From assembly GCA_030149525.1 (NCBI GenBank), contig JASBRJ010000086.1, forward strand, positions 1 through 35,683: a DNA stretch of 35,683 nt. The letters are read 5' to 3'. Under the pieces are notes generated by a model. It saw only the letters and a program-made list of their open reading frames with translations, was not told the DNA's origin and did not search any database. Within the stretch, counting starts at the first letter, position 1. Each line of letters starts with the position of its first letter. Positions 15,845 through 33,050 of this stretch are shown here, piece after piece. The translations under genes and the position numbers were made by a program. This DNA is from a bacterium. GTDB lineage: Bacteria > Vulcanimicrobiota > Xenobia > Xenobiales > JADMJV01.

Positions 15845-16708
15845 TCACCAATCGGTAGGGTCTCGGTAGCACCGCCGACCTTTTTCCAAATTATACAGGT
15901 TCACCCGGGCGGATTCCCTTAGCTCCAGGTTCTCGCTAGAGAGGAGCTCCCGATTTAGTTTTACGGCCTTGCTGCGCACCCAGGCCCTCTCAGGCTTACT
16001 CTCCTCGGGGAAGCACTCGAAGGCCATCCTGTAGAGCCGAGCGAGGTCAGTCTTAACTTGATCGAGGACCTTAGAGTTCGGGTGGTTCACTAGGTATCGT
16101 TGATAACGCGCGACATGGTCCAGAATGAGCCGGACGGACCCCTCATATTCGTAAACAGAGTTCTCAAGCTCGAATGCCTCGTAATGAATCCGATCAAAGT
16201 TTAGCCCTTTCGGGTAGTCGACCAGAAAATTGCGGTAAACCTTCAGCGTTTCAGACCAGTCTGTCTTCCCCACTGTTCTCCCACGTTCATATTCCCGATA
16301 GAAGGTGCACGCCAGGGCCCGCAACTCTTCGGTGAGGGGATGGTTGGGATAATGCCGGGCTAGAGCCAGGCAGAGGTGGTATCGATGGAGATGTTCGTCC
16401 GCGTTATCACGTCGCCGCTCGACCGGATTCGCCGTCATCCAGAGATAAGCTCTAGAAGCCGTAAAGCTCTGGTCCAGCGGTATCACTCCATAGGCGGAGA
16501 GCGGAATCTTTCCTCGCTCGGTCTGCGCCCAGCCGAACAGTGCCGTCGAGTCACCCTCGGGAGAGAACAACACCACTTCACCGGCTTGCTTAACGATCTT
16601 GCCCTCACGCTCCAAGGGCTGGAGAAGGATGCCTCTCAGCGGTTCGGCTCCGGCCTCTGGGATCGTAATAAAGAGCACGATCAGGATCGCTCGGAAGAAT
16701 CTGTCCAT
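15845..16708 (-). CDS. Secreted helical-repeat protein of unknown function
   Basis: The frame is open up to 17077, but a strong site (GAGGTGA, 7 nt before ATG at 16708) and an immediate signal peptide, MDRFFRAILIVLFITIPEAGA|EPL, fix the start, giving 287 residues. After a beta-like region (residues 25-85) the protein is helical with TPR-like spacing: HLCLALARHYPNHPLTEELRAL, then VYRNFLVDYPKG and YQRYLVNHPNSKVLDQVKTDL. The N-H-P/D-Y-P turns at helix ends resemble those of BamD/YbgF-type TPR proteins. A scaffold or protein-interaction role in the periplasm is plausible but unproven. It is divergent from the kinase-dehydrogenase gene. Confidence 0.65.
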   Translation of the reverse strand: MDRFFRAILIVLFITIPEAGAEPLRGILLQPLEREGKIVKQAGEVVLFSPEGDSTALFGWAQTERGKIPLSAYGVIPLDQSFTASRAYLWMTANPVERRRDNADEHLHRYHLCLALARHYPNHPLTEELRALACTFYREYERGRTVGKTDWSETLKVYRNFLVDYPKGLNFDRIHYEAFELENSVYEYEGSVRLILDHVARYQRYLVNHPNSKVLDQVKTDLARLYRMAFECFPEESKPERAWVRSKAVKLNRELLSSENLELRESARVNLYNLEKGRRCYRDPTDW

Positions 16709-16889
16709 GGCTAGTTCACCTCGATAGAGAGATTCTCGCTGCTGCCATCCGTTACTGCCTTGATATCCTAAAGGCCTTAGAGTGGAACAAACTACCAGTC
16801 CGAAGTACGCTCGAGTCAAGCAAACGGCCCACATCCCGACCACTGTACTGGGGCAAGGGGCCCTCAAAGCTTTCCCGAACGCCCACAGG

Positions 16890-18716
16890 GTGAGTGAATT
16901 CTTCGACCTGAACACCCTTTGTCCCATCCTTGAGAAGATCGACCCAGATTTCGCCGATCCGCAGGAAGTGACGGTCAAACCGTTCTCCGGTGGGGTCTCC
17001 AATCTGACCGCCCAGCTGAAAGCGGGTGAGAAGACCCTGGTGGTGAGACGGGCGCCTCCGGGAAAGAAAGCCGCCACGGCCCATGATATGGTTCGTGAAG
17101 CGCGGGTCCTGAAAGCGGTGCGCCCTCATTTTCCCATGGTTCCCGAGGTTCTTCACGTGGAAGAAGACCCGGATATTCTTGGGACATGTTTCTTCGTCAT
17201 GGAACACCTGGACGGCCATGTGCCCACCAGCAAACTCCCGGTCAAACTCGGCCCCGACCAGGCCAAAGCGTTGTGCGAAAATCTGTTCGATCTCCAGGCC
17301 GCTCTCCACTCCGTGGACCTGGAAGCCACCGGTCTCTCCAACCTGGGCAAGCCCGAAGGCTATGTGGAGCGGCAGATCCAGGGCTGGAGCAAACGGTATC
17401 GAGACGCCCGGACAGAAGACGTGCCCAAAGCAGAGCGCGTGATGGAATGGCTGGAGAAGAATCGACCGGAGGAAGCGGGAGCAGCGCTTATCCACAACGA
17501 CTTCAAGTTCGACAATGTGGTTCTGAGCCCTCAAGACCCCACCCGAATTATCGGTGTTCTGGACTGGGAGATGGCCACCATCGGCGACCCTCTCATGGAT
17601 TTGGGAGCCTCTTTAGCCTACTGGGTCAACCGCGACGATCCACCCGGCCTGAAAGCCATGAAAACCCAACCCACCACCGTCCCCGGCATGATGACCAGAG
17701 ACGAAGTGGTGGCGCGATACGCCGAACGCACCGGTCGCACCATCGAGGATTTCACCTTTTACTATGTCTACGGCCTCTTCAGACTGGCCGGAATCGCCCA
17801 ACAGATCTATCAACGCTACACACTCGGTCAATCCAAGAATCCCCGTTTTGCCGCCTTCGGACAGGCGGTGGGCATCCTCATCCAACAGGCTCAGAAAGAG
17901 ATTAGAGAATACGAGAACCGTATGAACAAAGAGACTCAAATGACCGAACTTCTCACCTCCCGGGCGTTCCGACTGGACGGAAAAGTGGCTGTCATTACCG
18001 GCTCCAGTCGCGGTATCGGGGAGTCCGTGGCCCGTCTGTTCGCCAATCAGGGGGCCCATGTTGTGGTCTCATCCCGTAAACAAGAATCATGCGAAGAGGT
18101 GGCCGAGAGTATTCGGGCTCAAGGCGGGAAAGCGACAGCCTTAGCCTGTCATGTTGGTGAAGCAGAAGCCCGAGAGCAACTCATCTCCCAGGTCGTGGAG
18201 AAACTCGGTCGCATCGACATCCTCATCAATAACGCCGCCACCAACCCTTACTTCGGACACATTCTCGACACACCGACCTCCATGGCCGAGAAAACCATCT
18301 CGGTGAACTTGGGCGGCTTCTTCCATATGAGCCAACTGGCCGGTCGGGCCATGAGGGAGCAGGGCGGCGGCGTGATCATCAACACAGCGTCGGTTAACGG
18401 AGTCTCCCCGGCTCAGTATCAGGGCATCTACTCCATTACAAAGGGTGCCATCATCACCATGACTCAATCCTTTGCCAAGGAGTGTGCCGGAGACGGCATC
18501 CGCGTCAACGCCGTCTTGCCCGGACTCACGGAAACCAGGTTCGCCTCGGCACTCACCGAAAACGAAGCGCTCTTAAAAACCATTCTGCCGCTCATCCCGC
18601 AGGGCCGCGTGGCAGACCCTGCCGAAATCGCCCCCGCCTTTTTATACCTCGCATCACCGGCCTCATCATACGTGACCGGAATATGCCTCACCGTCGACGG
18701 CGGATTACTCGCTTAG
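16890..18716 (+). CDS. Fusion of APH-type (LvaA/ACAD10-like) kinase and short-chain dehydrogenase
   Basis: From GTG 16890 (MSEFFDLNTLCPIL) the protein has 608 residues; a GTG at 16782 would add 36 residues that look non-coding. Residues 1-340 are an aminoglycoside-phosphotransferase-like kinase: the GGVSN nucleotide loop, HNDFKFDN with catalytic H202/D204 and N209, and metal-binding DWE at 225-227. Residues 358-608 are a complete SDR: TGSSRGIG at 370-377, NNAA at 447-450, Ser501, and Y514/K518. The linker (near residues 345-352) has two Met codons but no stop. Relatives of the kinase phosphorylate 4-hydroxyacyl-CoA (LvaA, ACAD10/11), and an SDR (LvaD) makes that substrate from the 4-keto form. 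The downstream ACAD gene supports this role, which remains an inference. Confidence 0.85.
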   Translation: MSEFFDLNTLCPILEKIDPDFADPQEVTVKPFSGGVSNLTAQLKAGEKTLVVRRAPPGKKAATAHDMVREARVLKAVRPHFPMVPEVLHVEEDPDILGTCFFVMEHLDGHVPTSKLPVKLGPDQAKALCENLFDLQAALHSVDLEATGLSNLGKPEGYVERQIQGWSKRYRDARTEDVPKAERVMEWLEKNRPEEAGAALIHNDFKFDNVVLSPQDPTRIIGVLDWEMATIGDPLMDLGASLAYWVNRDDPPGLKAMKTQPTTVPGMMTRDEVVARYAERTGRTIEDFTFYYVYGLFRLAGIAQQIYQRYTLGQSKNPRFAAFGQAVGILIQQAQKEIREYENRMNKETQMTELLTSRAFRLDGKVAVITGSSRGIGESVARLFANQGAHVVVSSRKQESCEEVAESIRAQGGKATALACHVGEAEAREQLISQVVEKLGRIDILINNAATNPYFGHILDTPTSMAEKTISVNLGGFFHMSQLAGRAMREQGGGVIINTASVNGVSPAQYQGIYSITKGAIITMTQSFAKECAGDGIRVNAVLPGLTETRFASALTENEALLKTILPLIPQGRVADPAEIAPAFLYLASPASSYVTGICLTVDGGLLA

Positions 18717-18724
18717 GATACGCT

Positions 18725-19927
18725 ATGGATTTTGCCCTCACCCAAAAAGCCTCCGAAATCTGCCGCCAGGCTGAAGACTTCGTCAATTCTCATTTAGTGG
18801 ACTTGGAGAAGGCTGTTCTGGCCGAAGGTTGGGAGGCGATTCAGCCCCGACTGGCCGAGGTTCGCGAGAAAGCCCGCCAGACCGGGCTTTTCACTCCCCA
18901 TATGTCCAAAGGGCACGGTGGCGGGGGGCTGACTCTGCTGGAGCAAGCCCATCTTTCAGAAGTGCTGGGTCAGAATCTCCTCGGTCATGTGGCCTTCAAC
19001 TTCGCCGCCCCCGATGTGGGCAATATGGAGCTTCTCCACGCCTTCGGAAGCCCGGAGCAACAGGAGCGGTTTCTCAAGCCGCTAGCCGCAGGTAAAATTC
19101 GAAGCACTTTCTTGATGACGGAACCTGAGCATGCCGGTTCCAACCCGGTTTGGATGAGCACTAAGGCAGAGCTTCAAGGTGACGAATGGGTCCTCAACGG
19201 GCACAAATGGTTTGCCACTGCCGCCGACGGAGCCGATTTCTGCGTTATCATGGCCATCACCGACCCGGAGGAGGAGAACCGCTACGCCCGGGCCAGCATG
19301 TTCGTCTTTCCCACCGATGTGGAAGGCCTGAAGCTGGTTCGTAACGTCTCCGTTATGGGCCATGAAGGCTCCGGCTGGATGAGTCATGGAGAATTGACCC
19401 TGGAAAATGTTCGGGTTCCCAAAGACTCTTTGCTAGGACCGCGCCGGGGTGGCTTCAAACTGGCCCAAACACGGCTCGGACCGGGAAGAATCCATCACGC
19501 CACGCGCTGGGTGGGAGTTTGTAAGCGCGCTCTCCGGATGATGTGTGAGCGCTCTGCCCAGCGAGAATTGTCTCCTGGGAAACCTCTGGCCCAGCAACAG
19601 ACGATCCAGGAATGGATCGCAGAATCACGGGCCGAGATAGAGGCTGCCCGACTTATGGTGCTTCAGGCCGCCTGGAAAATCGAGCAGCATGGGGAGTTCC
19701 GGGAGGATGTCTCCCTCATCAAATTCTTCGTGGCCGGTGTCTTGCAGCGAGTTCTGGATCGGGCCATTCAGGTCCACGGAGCCCTGGGAATGACCGACGA
19801 CACGCCACTGGCCTTCTGGTACAGCCATGAAAGAGGCTCTCGCATCTACGACGGGCCGGATGAGGTTCATAAGTACGTCGTGGCCCGGAGTGTTCTGGGT
19901 GAGTATGGAGTGAAGGTCAAGCGATGA
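18725..19927 (+). CDS. Acyl-CoA dehydrogenase of the ACAD10/11 (LvaC-like) type
   Basis: This 400-residue protein starts at ATG 18725, 8 nt after the kinase-SDR stop, so the two are cotranscribed. It has the three ACAD parts: a helical N-domain (1-125), a beta-domain with STFLMTEPEHAGSNP and GHKWFATAADGADF, and a C-terminal helical bundle with AIQVHGALGMTDDTPLA. At the position where classical dehydrogenases carry the catalytic Glu (IYEGT) this protein has IYDGPDEVHK, with D376. This variant is characteristic of ACAD10/11-like enzymes, which handle 4-phosphooxyacyl-CoA rather than carrying out simple alpha,beta-dehydrogenation. The fit with the fused kinase-SDR is strong, but the natural substrate chain length is unknown. 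Confidence 0.88.
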   Translation: MDFALTQKASEICRQAEDFVNSHLVDLEKAVLAEGWEAIQPRLAEVREKARQTGLFTPHMSKGHGGGGLTLLEQAHLSEVLGQNLLGHVAFNFAAPDVGNMELLHAFGSPEQQERFLKPLAAGKIRSTFLMTEPEHAGSNPVWMSTKAELQGDEWVLNGHKWFATAADGADFCVIMAITDPEEENRYARASMFVFPTDVEGLKLVRNVSVMGHEGSGWMSHGELTLENVRVPKDSLLGPRRGGFKLAQTRLGPGRIHHATRWVGVCKRALRMMCERSAQRELSPGKPLAQQQTIQEWIAESRAEIEAARLMVLQAAWKIEQHGEFREDVSLIKFFVAGVLQRVLDRAIQVHGALGMTDDTPLAFWYSHERGSRIYDGPDEVHKYVVARSVLGEYGVKVKR

Positions 19928-23554: not shown

Positions 23555-26500
23555 CTAGGAAGTCACTAACTCCCCACACTCAATCCGTAGCAACTCCTCA
23601 AAAGCCGCTTCCACATCCTGAACCAGAAGCTCCGGCTTATCGACCAACCCCGCATCGGTAGCTATTCCCACACGGACCTGTTGATTATAGCTGAGAATAG
23701 AGAGTCCGAGACCGAGGCCTCCCGACTGGGGAACCCAGAACATCAAACTCGAGATCTCTTTCCCCGCCAAAAGAAGCGGTTCCTGAGGCCCTGGGACATT
23801 GGTGAGAACAGCCGTAGCAGAGGCTCCGAAGAGACCGACGACTCGCTTCTCAAGTTCGGCCGGGATCGTTCCCACAGCAGAGAGTAAACCAAGCACCATC
23901 ACCGCCTGAGGTGACTCTTTCAACTCGTTCATGAAGGCTTTCACAGCGGCCAGTTGCTCCCGGGGATCGGCGATTCCGATGGGAAGATTCATAAAAACCA
24001 GGCCAAACTTGTTGCCCAACTCCTCCCCACTCCGACGACGCAAGTCCACCGGCACCACCGCTCTGACCACTGTGCCCTCCTTGATCTTCCCTCGCTCCCG
24101 TAGAATGTAGCGCCTCAAGCCGTTGGTCAGACACGCCGTGAGAACATCGTTCACGGTGGATTTGGAGGGGACGCGCGCCCGTTTAATGTCGGCCAGGGGA
24201 ATCGGCCGGGTCACGGCCACCCGCTTATCCTTACAGAGAATCCCTTTGAAGGGAGTTTTAGGTTCCGGAGTGATCAGGCCTTTGGACAGAGTGGCCGTGG
24301 CTCCCAGGCCTCGTTTGGCGAGATCAACAAAGCCTCGAGGCCGCACCTGAAGCTGGCGATTCTTTTGCACCAAAGTCATCTCTGTCGACGCCTTCTTCGG
24401 CTCAGTCAAACTCAAGAGAACCTTCATCAGAGCGTTGCCGTCGGCGATGGCGTGATGGAGAACCGCCACCAGTGCCGAACCGCGGGCCATATCCTCCACA
24501 AGATACATTTTCCATAGAGGCTTGCTCCGACTCAACCTCTGCCCCATCTTTTTGCCTACAAAAGCGTGGAGATCGGCTTCCGTTGCCCCAGGCATACTGA
24601 TCCGCTCGATATGATTTTCGATGTGGAAATCTTTCACCGGAACCCAACTGGGGCGGCGAAGGGGATTGCGCGATCGGCGAACCCTCATACGGAAACGATC
24701 GTATTTGAGCATCCGCTCGGACACCGTTTGTTTGAGGTCTTCATAGTCAAGTCGGTCTTCGAACAAAAACATGGCCGTGATCATCATCAAATTCTCGGGC
24801 TTATCCATATGAAGCCAGGCCGCGTCGGCCTTGGTCAGGATCTTCTTTTGAACGGACCCGTGTATCACCGGTTGTAAGGTTTTTGGATAGAGATAGTTCT
24901 TGATGGACTTATGAAAAACCGCCGGAGATAGAGAACCCGCCGTTTGAGCCTTGTCTTGCTCCAGTTCGTCGATGAACTCCAACCAGTGACGCTCCCGTTC
25001 GGAGATCACATCAAGATCTCGAATCTTGCCGAAGTCCTGAACGTACTTGTTGTGGCGACAGACCATTCGGAAGACTTCTTTGGTGTTGGGGCGCTGCTCC
25101 GGCATCCCCAAAATAGTCACATCGTTCCCCACCTCGTGGACGGGCTGATTTCGCTCACTGTATCCACCGAAAATATCATCCAGTTTGGTGATAGCGTGAG
25201 CCACTCGGGGCTGCTTGAGTTTTCGCAGAGTACCGGCCAGAACGGGGAGTTGAAAATTGCGGTGAAAGGTCGGCTCCGCGAGCTTGATCTTGACCCGCAA
25301 CTCCTCTCTGAGGATATCCTGAATCTCTTTGGCCTTAATTCGAGAGTCGGTGGCCAGGTGAATCCGCTGACCCACCGCCCGGGGAGCGGACAAAGCTCGA
25401 AGAATGCCGGCGGCCACCCAATCTACGGGGATGATATTGAGTTCGGCCGAGGGGTCGCCCGGAAAAATATTGGCCATCTGAGTCAAGACCTTGGCCTTAG
25501 ACCACTCCATAAACTTCCCGCGACGTTCTTTGAGTTCTTGATAGGCACGCCCGAAAGCGTTGACCGGGGCGTTGACCACTTTGAGATCTCCCCGATTGTT
25601 GCCCGTGCGCCCTTCCCCAACCACAATGGCCGGGCAGAGTTGAACCACCCGCAGACCGTCTTTTATCATGGCCTCCTCGGTCTCAAGCGAAGCCATCGCT
25701 TTGGTCAGTTCGTAGTAGTTGTTGTAGAAGTTTCGAGGGAAGACGATCTCATCTTCCCGAGCTTCCTGATGGGTTTGTCGACCATGGATGTAGGATGTTT
25801 CAATGCTCAGATGGGAGACGAATTTGCTCTGCTTGTGCTCTTGAATGGTTCGCGAGAAAGCCAGAGCGTTGCGACTGCCCACGACGTTTGCCATAAACGA
25901 CTCTTCATAGGGATCGTCGAAAGCCACACTAGCGGCGCAGTGGATCACGTTGGTGAGGCTGACGCACAACTCCTCAAAGTCTTCATCTGCAACCCCAAGC
26001 CTCGGTTGCTCGATGTCTCCGGCGATGAAGCGAAACTTGTGAGCTATTCCGGGATCATCAAGCCAAAGCTGCTTCAGCAGTTCTTGACCGCGCTCCTCAG
26101 GAGACAGAACCTTGATCACCTCTTTGGTCTGGCGATCGCGAATCGTTTTGGGGCGAATCAAAACCACCATCTCCGCAATCTCCGGCATGGTAGCCGCTTG
26201 CCACATCAACTCTTTGCCTACAAACCCCGTCCCGCCCGTGAGCAAAACCCGCAACTGCATCTGACCGTTGACCCGAGTTCGGTCTAGCGCTTCTCGAGCC
26301 TCATCGTTGAGCTTCTTAAGCACTTGTCCAACGTCTGTATCCTCAGACCATCGGGGCTTGTAACGAAAAAAGAACTCTCGATCCTTGAGGCCGAACAGTT
26401 TCTGAGCCACTTTTTCAGGCTCTTTCCCCGCCACCTTGGCCACCATATCGGCCGTGGTTTTGCCGAGATTGCGCGCCTTCTTGAAGGCGGCTTTGACGCG

Positions 26501-26689
26501 CTTCTCGTCGCCGGTGGCCTCGATGAAAACGCTGGTTAGATGGCGCGCATAGGTCTCCACGATGTGGAAATCTCGATGATCTCGAACCAGCAGTTCCTCC
26601 GGACCAAAATCGTCCGACAAAACCTCTCCGGTGACGAGACTCACCTTCTCGATGTAATAAGACGGTTTTTGAACCTGGTTCTTGTTCAA
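23555..26689 (-). CDS. Bifunctional fatty acyl reductase - wax ester synthase (FAR-WS/DGAT) fusion
   Basis: This 1044-residue protein starts at TTG (26689 on the minus strand) after AGGGGG. Residues 1-140 are of unknown type. Residues 146-470 are a NAD_binding_4 (male-sterility) reductase with TGGTGFVG at 151-158 and Y326-x-x-x-K330; residues 480-600 resemble the FAR C-terminal domain. Residues 605-1044 are a full WS/DGAT acyltransferase with HHAIADG at 745-751, a PLW motif near 724, a VNDVL segment and NVPGP near the end. In known systems FAR reduces acyl-CoA to fatty alcohol and WS/DGAT esterifies it with another acyl-CoA. Here both activities could sit on one chain and make wax ester from acyl-CoA and NADPH. 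Confidence 0.9.
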   Translation of the reverse strand: MNKNQVQKPSYYIEKVSLVTGEVLSDDFGPEELLVRDHRDFHIVETYARHLTSVFIEATGDEKRVKAAFKKARNLGKTTADMVAKVAGKEPEKVAQKLFGLKDREFFFRYKPRWSEDTDVGQVLKKLNDEAREALDRTRVNGQMQLRVLLTGGTGFVGKELMWQAATMPEIAEMVVLIRPKTIRDRQTKEVIKVLSPEERGQELLKQLWLDDPGIAHKFRFIAGDIEQPRLGVADEDFEELCVSLTNVIHCAASVAFDDPYEESFMANVVGSRNALAFSRTIQEHKQSKFVSHLSIETSYIHGRQTHQEAREDEIVFPRNFYNNYYELTKAMASLETEEAMIKDGLRVVQLCPAIVVGEGRTGNNRGDLKVVNAPVNAFGRAYQELKERRGKFMEWSKAKVLTQMANIFPGDPSAELNIIPVDWVAAGILRALSAPRAVGQRIHLATDSRIKAKEIQDILREELRVKIKLAEPTFHRNFQLPVLAGTLRKLKQPRVAHAITKLDDIFGGYSERNQPVHEVGNDVTILGMPEQRPNTKEVFRMVCRHNKYVQDFGKIRDLDVISERERHWLEFIDELEQDKAQTAGSLSPAVFHKSIKNYLYPKTLQPVIHGSVQKKILTKADAAWLHMDKPENLMMITAMFLFEDRLDYEDLKQTVSERMLKYDRFRMRVRRSRNPLRRPSWVPVKDFHIENHIERISMPGATEADLHAFVGKKMGQRLSRSKPLWKMYLVEDMARGSALVAVLHHAIADGNALMKVLLSLTEPKKASTEMTLVQKNRQLQVRPRGFVDLAKRGLGATATLSKGLITPEPKTPFKGILCKDKRVAVTRPIPLADIKRARVPSKSTVNDVLTACLTNGLRRYILRERGKIKEGTVVRAVVPVDLRRRSGEELGNKFGLVFMNLPIGIADPREQLAAVKAFMNELKESPQAVMVLGLLSAVGTIPAELEKRVVGLFGASATAVLTNVPGPQEPLLLAGKEISSLMFWVPQSGGLGLGLSILSYNQQVRVGIATDAGLVDKPELLVQDVEAAFEELLRIECGELVTS

Positions 26690-31214: not shown

Positions 31215-33050
31215 ATGGAAATGTGCCTTACCAACGCTCGCTTTCGGGGCATGTTCTGGGCCCAGTTTTTGGGTGCCCTCAACGACAACGTTTTCAAAAA
31301 CGCTCTTGTCATTCTGGTGCTTTATCGGGGCTGGACCATCGGGTCTTTCTCTCCCGAGCAGTTCGCCATCATCGCAGGAGCCGTCTTTATCTTGCCTTTC
31401 ATTCTGTTCTCCGCCTGGGGAGGTCAGATCGCCGACCGGAAAGACAAAGCGGCCGTGGTTCGCGGACTGAAGACCTCGGAGATCGGGGTGGCGCTCCTTG
31501 CCACGGTAGGGCTTCTCACCCAACATGGAGAGCTTCTGCTGGCCGCCCTTTTCGGATTCGCCACCCAGTCGGCGTTTTTCGGTCCGGCCAAATACTCCAT
31601 TCTTCCCGAACTCTTAGAACCGGAGGAGCTGCTGGGCGGAAACGCCATCGTAGAATCCGGCACCAGCCTTGCCATCTTGTTCGGCACAATGCTTGGCGGC
31701 GCCCTGGCGGCCAGTCATCCCACCTACGTGGCGGTGGCGGTTATCTTCATCGCTCTAGCGGGTCGATTCATGGCCATCTCCATCCCCTCCACCCCCCCCA
31801 AAGCCCAATCTCGAAATATTTCCTGGCTCAAAGCCAACGCCCAGTCGCTGTCGCTCACCTGGCAGACCGTTCCCATGTTTCTCAGCATCATGGGGATCAG
31901 CTGGTTCTGGTTCTTCGGAGCCATCTGCCTCACTGTAGTGCCCCTCTACAGCAAAGACGTCCTCCACGGCACAGAGCATGTGACCACTCTTCTTTTGGCC
32001 GCCTATTCAGTGGGCATCGGCGTAGGCTCTCAAGGTTGTGAAAAACTGTCCAACGGACGAATGGAGTTGGGTTGGGTGCCTATCGGCAGCCTGGGCATGA
32101 CTCTTTTCGCCCTGGACTTCAGCATGCTGCGCTACCCCGACGTAGCCAGCCGAGCGCCCATGGACCTCCTGCAAGACTTCACCTGTCTTAGAATGCTGTT
32201 CGATCTTTGCGGACTGGCCGTCTGCGCGGGCCTCTTCATCGTCCCCCTTTACACCTTTATTCAAAAGCGGAGCGCGGCCGAGACCCGATCTCGCTTGATC
32301 GCCGGAAGCAGCCTTTGGAACTCTGTCTTCATCATCGCCTCAAGCTTCACTCTGCTGGCTGCACGTCACTACGGAATCACTCTTCCCCAGGTTTTCTTCG
32401 GGATCGCCATCATGAACATCCTGGTGGCTCTGGCGGCTTACCGAAAGCTTCCCGAATTCACCCTTCGTCTGTTCGTGGTGCTGATCTGCAAAATCTGCTA
32501 CAAGCTCAAAGTTTACAACGCTGAAGCCGTGCCCGAGGAAGGCGCCTGCGTCATCGTTGCCAACCACGTTACGCTCGTAGACTGGCTCTTTCTCGCCTCG
32601 GCCACCGACCGCCCCGCGCGGTTCGTGATGTACCACACCTACTACAACATGCCGCTGGCTCATTACATTTTTCGAGACGGTGGAGCCATCCCCATCGGCT
32701 CGGGACGCACCCACCCGGAAATCCTGGAACAGGCTTTTGAAAGCATCCATGAGGCGCTGCAAGACGATCAGTTGGTGATCATTTTCCCGGAGGGCAAACT
32801 GACCACCGATGGTGAGATGGACACCTTCCGAAAAGGGGTGGAGAAAATTCTCGAGCGCGACCCCGTGCCGGTCTTGCCCATGGCGTTGAGAAACCTCTGG
32901 GGTACTCGCTGGTCCAAATCAGAAGACCGCCGTTTTCACTGGCGACCTCTCATCGAACTTGTTGTGGGTGAGATAATGCCCGCCTCCCAGGCCAGCGCGG
33001 CGCACCTCGAAGAAAAAGTCGCCGAACTGCTAAAGAAACCCGTCCATTAG
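31215..33050 (+). CDS. MFS lysophospholipid transporter fused to PlsC-type acyltransferase
   Basis: Residues 1-415 of this 611-residue protein are a 12-helix MFS transporter of LplT type, with the signature FLGALNDNVFKNALVILV near residues 18-35. Residues 420-611 are a glycerolipid acyltransferase: NHVTLVDW with H451 and D456 (HX4D), IPIGSGR near 492 and FPEGKLTTDG at 524-533. In E. coli LplT imports lysophospholipid and the separate Aas reacylates it; fused versions normally add an AMP-binding acyl-ACP synthetase domain, absent here. The enzyme should therefore take acyl-CoA or acyl-ACP made elsewhere. It likely acts in the inner membrane on lysophospholipids. The importer operon ends just upstream. 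Confidence 0.9.
   Translation: MEMCLTNARFRGMFWAQFLGALNDNVFKNALVILVLYRGWTIGSFSPEQFAIIAGAVFILPFILFSAWGGQIADRKDKAAVVRGLKTSEIGVALLATVGLLTQHGELLLAALFGFATQSAFFGPAKYSILPELLEPEELLGGNAIVESGTSLAILFGTMLGGALAASHPTYVAVAVIFIALAGRFMAISIPSTPPKAQSRNISWLKANAQSLSLTWQTVPMFLSIMGISWFWFFGAICLTVVPLYSKDVLHGTEHVTTLLLAAYSVGIGVGSQGCEKLSNGRMELGWVPIGSLGMTLFALDFSMLRYPDVASRAPMDLLQDFTCLRMLFDLCGLAVCAGLFIVPLYTFIQKRSAAETRSRLIAGSSLWNSVFIIASSFTLLAARHYGITLPQVFFGIAIMNILVALAAYRKLPEFTLRLFVVLICKICYKLKVYNAEAVPEEGACVIVANHVTLVDWLFLASATDRPARFVMYHTYYNMPLAHYIFRDGGAIPIGSGRTHPEILEQAFESIHEALQDDQLVIIFPEGKLTTDGEMDTFRKGVEKILERDPVPVLPMALRNLWGTRWSKSEDRRFHWRPLIELVVGEIMPASQASAAHLEEKVAELLKKPVH

Follow-up and report, generated by a model that had tools for sequence, protein, structure and literature searches.

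A kinase-SDR fusion gene and an adjacent ACAD-like gene that probably prepare hydroxylated fatty acids for breakdown

Known systems and the layout of the locus

Enzymes were reportedly assigned to the 4-phosphoacyl-CoA route only between 2017, with the lva operon, and 2025, with ACAD10 and ACAD11. The mammalian ACAD10 and ACAD11 are kinase-ACAD fusions for 4-hydroxy acids. The levulinate operon of Pseudomonas, lvaABCDE, possesses a kinase, an ACAD and an SDR, and its full layout is lvaR-ABCDEFG (PMC6692424). A bacterial operon of a phosphotransferase, in some cases a histidine phosphatase, an SDR of the PRK07035 type and an acyl-CoA dehydrogenase is found on a plasmid of Azoarcus sp. KH32C, in Caballeronia sp. 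NK8 and in Azospirillum thermophilum. The records of these three operons carry no function.

We analyzed a stretch of bacterial DNA of 35,683 nucleotides (the window). A preliminary description had claimed an in-frame kinase-SDR fusion followed after 8 nt by an ACAD with the motif IYDGPDEVH, an arrangement different from the kinase-ACAD fusions. Each of these points was confirmed. A single ORF without an internal stop (16890-18716, plus strand; GTG start at 16890, TAG at 18714-18716) encodes an APH-type kinase and a complete SDR in 608 aa, and Pfam detected APH (180.7 bits) and adh_short_C2 (207.1 bits) in the same frame. The program-called ORF opens upstream of the GTG, at 16782. Since the N-terminus of the closest relative, MSELFDLTAL, aligns with (GTG)SEFFDLNTL of the window, the start at 16890 is favored. 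The ATG of the ACAD-like gene (18725-19927, plus strand; 400 aa; assigned by Pfam and tree) lies 8 nt (18717-18724) past the TAG of the fusion. Thus, unlike in ACAD10 and ACAD11, the kinase is joined to the SDR and the ACAD is encoded separately. Upstream, the unit is bounded by a divergent neighbor outside it (15845-16708, minus strand), which has a signal-peptide-like start and no Pfam match. The window genome possesses one kinase and one ACAD of these types, and its next ACAD is 31% identical.

Based on these features and on the comparisons described here, the unit probably converts hydroxylated fatty acids into a form that can be degraded. With confidence slightly better than even, we favor the reading that the two genes bring hydroxylated acyl-CoAs, most likely those with a 4-hydroxyl, into beta-oxidation.

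The window shares the kinase, ACAD and SDR toolkit with lva; unlike in lva, no CoA ligase, transporter or regulator adjoins the unit. Because the LvaC-like ACADs of Pseudomonas that were identified from their resemblance to the Azoarcus ACAD had no adjoining kinase, an lva-type operon was located through DUF6285. This Pseudomonas operon (L244) encodes a PrpR-like sigma-54 regulator, a kinase, DUF6285, an ACAD, an SDR, a CoA ligase, DUF485 and a symporter, a layout of the lvaR-ABCDEFG type. Since its ACAD and mouse ACAD11 share about 36% identity, against 62/56% published for LvaC and ACAD10/11 (PMC11342911), L244 is lva by layout and not by proven identity to the KT2440 operon. The window proteins are 27% (kinase), 33% (SDR) and 35% (ACAD) identical to those of L244, and the trees separate them. 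Thus, orthology to LvaA, LvaC and LvaD does not hold, and an SDR of the LvaD type is ruled out. By score, the kinase and the SDR lie away from resistance kinases and FabG, the contrary outcomes named in the preliminary description; in the trees, all three domains fell outside the LvaA/C/D and ACAD10/11 clades. The sequences suggest that the window works like lva, although it is no orthologue of the lva-type operon compared.

DUF6285 of L244 (4901-5257) sits at the place of lvaB, and from this gene order it may be the LvaB family. No LvaB-like DUF6285 was found in the window genome or in five family members. In addition, nearly all of 119 Pseudomonas genomes possess an ACAD11-like ACAD that is 56-57% identical to mouse ACAD11; no kinase of the window's family was adjacent in the two loci checked (L238 and L239).

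With the Azoarcus, Caballeronia and Azospirillum operon, the window has its gene families in common. The SDRs are 53-57% identical, and the order in Azoarcus and Caballeronia is kinase-SDR-ACAD. In contrast, the window kinase and SDR are fused, no histidine phosphatase adjoins the unit, and the ACAD carries IYDG/SNP instead of ADGPDEVH/SSDA. The window locus is a compact version of this widespread bacterial operon, and its chemistry is of a known kind.

Distribution and origin of the fusion

Kinase, histidine phosphatase, PRK07035-type SDR and ACAD genes cluster in varied combinations in many Proteobacteria and Actinobacteria. The kinase scan covered 84,980 species genomes, and the best 80 named loci of a larger number were taken. 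Among them, a histidine phosphatase was nearby in 46, an ACAD of the superfamily in 45 and a PRK07035-like SDR (counted at 290 bits or more) in 26, as tallied by hand from the table. The unfused genes of Caballeronia and Azoarcus stand in the same order as in the window.

One of the 80 loci, L110 from a gammaproteobacterial MAG, was fused. Its fusion is 53% identical to that of the window over nearly the whole length, and its IYDGPDEVH ACAD is 51% identical. Profile searches added L184, L186, L187 and L188, from the order of L110, and L193. The fusion of L184 sits within a contig of 4.38 Mb. L193, from the phylum of a Vicinamibacteria genome, is the closest relative (70% identical) and is cut by the contig end. 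The fusion was therefore found in seven assemblies from three phylum-level groups. Since the two domains stay in one frame in relatives of 51-70% identity from six other assemblies, in five cases along the full length, chance is excluded. An assembly or frameshift artefact is ruled out by the same fused frame in seven independent assemblies, and a fusion unique to the window genome is ruled out by the six relatives. It is not common across the window's own phylum either: in 149 genomes, no second fusion was found, and the genes occur there only as separate neighbors. Taken together, the fusion is genuine but rare, and apparently recurrent.

The gammaproteobacterial fusion loci have the order histidine phosphatase, ACAD, TetR-like gene and fusion; the histidine phosphatase was not found at L110, which lies on a short contig. 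In their close relatives L185, L191 and L141, the kinase and SDR genes are adjacent and unfused. Most simply, the fusion would have arisen by loss of the stop between two such neighboring genes. In the trees of the kinase and of the SDR, fused rows are interspersed with unfused ones. A topology with all fused kinases in one clade is rejected by the AU test (p 0.0075), a value that carries long-branch caveats. This speaks against a single origin of all fusions. However, since the branch of L141 is long and gene transfer or gene fission may have occurred, the rejection is not a proof of separate origins.

The two domains are connected by a helical linker (17922-17969, plus strand) with ATGs at 17922 and 17940, of which the latter is the ancestral SDR start; the Shine-Dalgarno sequence is weak at both. 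The AlphaFold model (mean pLDDT 80, pTM 0.61) possesses two folded domains with one long helix between them (residues 318-356), and confidence is lower at the junction. No solved chain spanning both fused domains was found in the 50 best Foldseek matches. The five gammaproteobacterial fusions (L110, L184, L186, L187 and L188) keep the ATG and the Shine-Dalgarno sequence of the old SDR gene inside the fused ORF, at -5.6 to -8.5 kcal/mol, where 4% of in-frame ATGs reach -6 kcal/mol as background. These internal starts, together with the interleaving in the trees, favor a reading in which the fused ORF works as two genes: a free SDR is made from the internal start, and nothing in particular depends on the joined form. 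We consider this reading unlikely, because the Shine-Dalgarno sequence is weak in the window (-2.9 kcal/mol) and in L193 (-2.7 kcal/mol) and the frame is nonetheless kept. Since the ATG is kept there without a good Shine-Dalgarno sequence, the fusions of the window and L193 look more committed to a single polypeptide.

The kinase and SDR domains

The kinase domain (16890-17921, plus strand) carries the catalytic loop HNDFKFDN (17493-17516) and the metal-binding motif DWE (17562-17570), as had been described. H202, D204, D208 and N209 of the loop and the whole DWE motif are invariant in the kinase alignment. The best solved relatives are PDB 9o56 (264.5 bits), 3dxp (171 bits) and ACAD11 (167 bits), whereas a macrolide kinase scored 26.4 bits only. 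Thus, an aminoglycoside or macrolide resistance kinase, raised beforehand as a contrary outcome, is ruled out. The record of 9o56 bears the name 'aminoglycoside phosphotransferase', and a literature search found no paper on this structure. In the kinase tree, the window kinase and 9o56 share a clade of about 106 rows, apart from the ACAD11 and 3dxp kinases. The identity of the window kinase to that of mouse ACAD11, with which it shares the fold, is 33%.

The SDR domain (17970-18713, plus strand) carries the glycine motif TGSSRGIG (17997-18020). The catalytic residues N473, S501, Y514 and K518 are all present in the alignment with the fusion relatives. The domain narrowly passed the NCBIfam model PRK07035 (NF005446; 374.9 bits against a cut-off of 373) and failed both FabG models (200.6 against 296 and 192.3 against 297.75). 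FabG, another contrary outcome, is therefore ruled out. In the SDR tree, the window groups with the SDRs of other fusions and their unfused neighbors (support 100/98). No assay of a PRK07035 member was found in the literature.

The sequence SSRK after strand beta-2 points to NADP(H), which is usual for reductases. This, and the fact that the SDR is joined to the kinase instead of the ACAD, argue against a reading that we regard as quite improbable. In that reading, the SDR would act after the ACAD, using NAD(P)+ to oxidize a 3-hydroxyacyl-CoA or a different alcohol, and the kinase substrate would not be its product. On the other side, some clusters have two SDR genes, the SDR is outside the LvaD type, and LvaC and ACAD10 also yield 3-hydroxyacyl-CoA by hydration (PMC11342911). 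Under the favored reading, we infer both the direction and the substrate of the SDR, namely reduction of 4-ketoacyl-CoA.

In a 31-row tree with many long branches, the peroxisomal SDR DHRS4 of pig falls together with the kinase-linked bacterial SDRs L063 and L030 (98/96). ACAD11 and DHRS4 share this organelle, which raises the question of a role of DHRS4 in 4-hydroxy acid metabolism.

The ACAD clade and the proposed reactions

The helix-breaking proline, the phosphate site and the catalytic residues of ACAD11 have been published (PMC12440821, PMC11342911). In the window ACAD, P96 aligns with this proline. The stretch RLGPGRIHHATR (19472-19507, plus strand) contains R250, H258 and R261, which correspond to R626, H634 and R637 of ACAD11, and D376 in IYDGPDEVH (19844-19870, plus strand), which replaces the Glu, corresponds to the catalytic D753 (PMC12440821). 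All five residues are invariant both in the clade of the window ACAD (23 members) and in that of mouse ACAD11 (56 members). The claim of ACAD10/11-type chemistry is thus supported. IYDGPDEVH itself is not the mark of ACAD10/11, which have ADGPDEVH; IYDG, together with SNP for SDA, marks a neighboring clade. Since the five marker residues are kept, the route of a kinase and phosphate elimination acting on a hydroxyacyl-CoA is well supported.

Besides the ACADs that accompany the fusions, the 23-row clade includes Desulfobacterota and Acidobacteriota ACADs. It is separate from the 56-row clade (supports 100/97 and 100/100). The fixed differences are Y375 for A/V and N140-P141 for D-A. The window ACAD is 34% identical to mouse ACAD11, and CM of HCMR is changed to AT. 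With both domains in separate, supported clades, neither the ACAD nor the kinase is an ACAD10/11 orthologue. In the literature, no assay was found for any member of the 23-row clade; the locus defines a sister clade whose fixed signature is Tyr-Asp and Asn-Pro.

These differences, and the likewise separate kinase clade, favor a reading in which the kinase and ACAD chemistry is the same, but the ACAD clade takes a different phosphorylated hydroxyacyl-CoA, one that is branched or cyclic or bears the hydroxyl at another position. We regard it as doubtful, since the two ACAD clades do not differ in the phosphate site or the catalytic residues. Moreover, the lva-type ACADs in this analysis, from a 4-hydroxyvalerate route, have the same catalytic residues and also a Tyr before the catalytic Asp. 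Against the favored 4-hydroxyacyl-CoA reading stand the 34% identity of the ACAD, the SDR type and the missing adjoining genes.

The favored reading can be written as the following scheme, in which the substrates, the 4-position, the order of the steps and the SDR direction are our proposal, and the kinase and ACAD steps draw on conserved residues and characterized relatives. The SDR would reduce a ketoacyl-CoA with NADPH to the hydroxyacyl-CoA and thereby supply the kinase substrate; alternatively, it may interconvert hydroxyl epimers via the ketone. The kinase would phosphorylate the hydroxyl with ATP, giving a phosphoacyl-CoA. In the ACAD, with FAD, D376 would act as the base that takes the alpha-proton, and the phosphate held by R250, H258 and R261 would be expelled. 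The products would be 2-enoyl-CoA and phosphate, formed without net oxidation. The fusion would fix the stoichiometry of the SDR and kinase steps. Since the SDR is physically tied to the kinase, a partner step is predicted, the making or epimerizing of the hydroxyl, and one protein holding both activities offers a single object for its test.

More tentatively, and short of even confidence, the fusion may be a bifunctional ketoacyl-CoA reductase/hydroxyacyl-CoA kinase that hands the alcohol directly to the kinase site, with a distinct phosphate-eliminating ACAD clade that has its own substrate. The union of reductase and kinase would then have been reached more than once, complementing the animal union of kinase and ACAD.

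Other joined ORFs were observed in the window. A single ORF of 1044 aa (23555-26689, minus strand) combines, by Pfam, a fatty acyl-CoA reductase domain (NAD_binding_4) with a wax ester synthase/DGAT (WS_DGAT_cat and the C-terminal domain). Another ORF (31215-33050, plus strand) encodes an MFS transporter and an acyltransferase domain in one frame.
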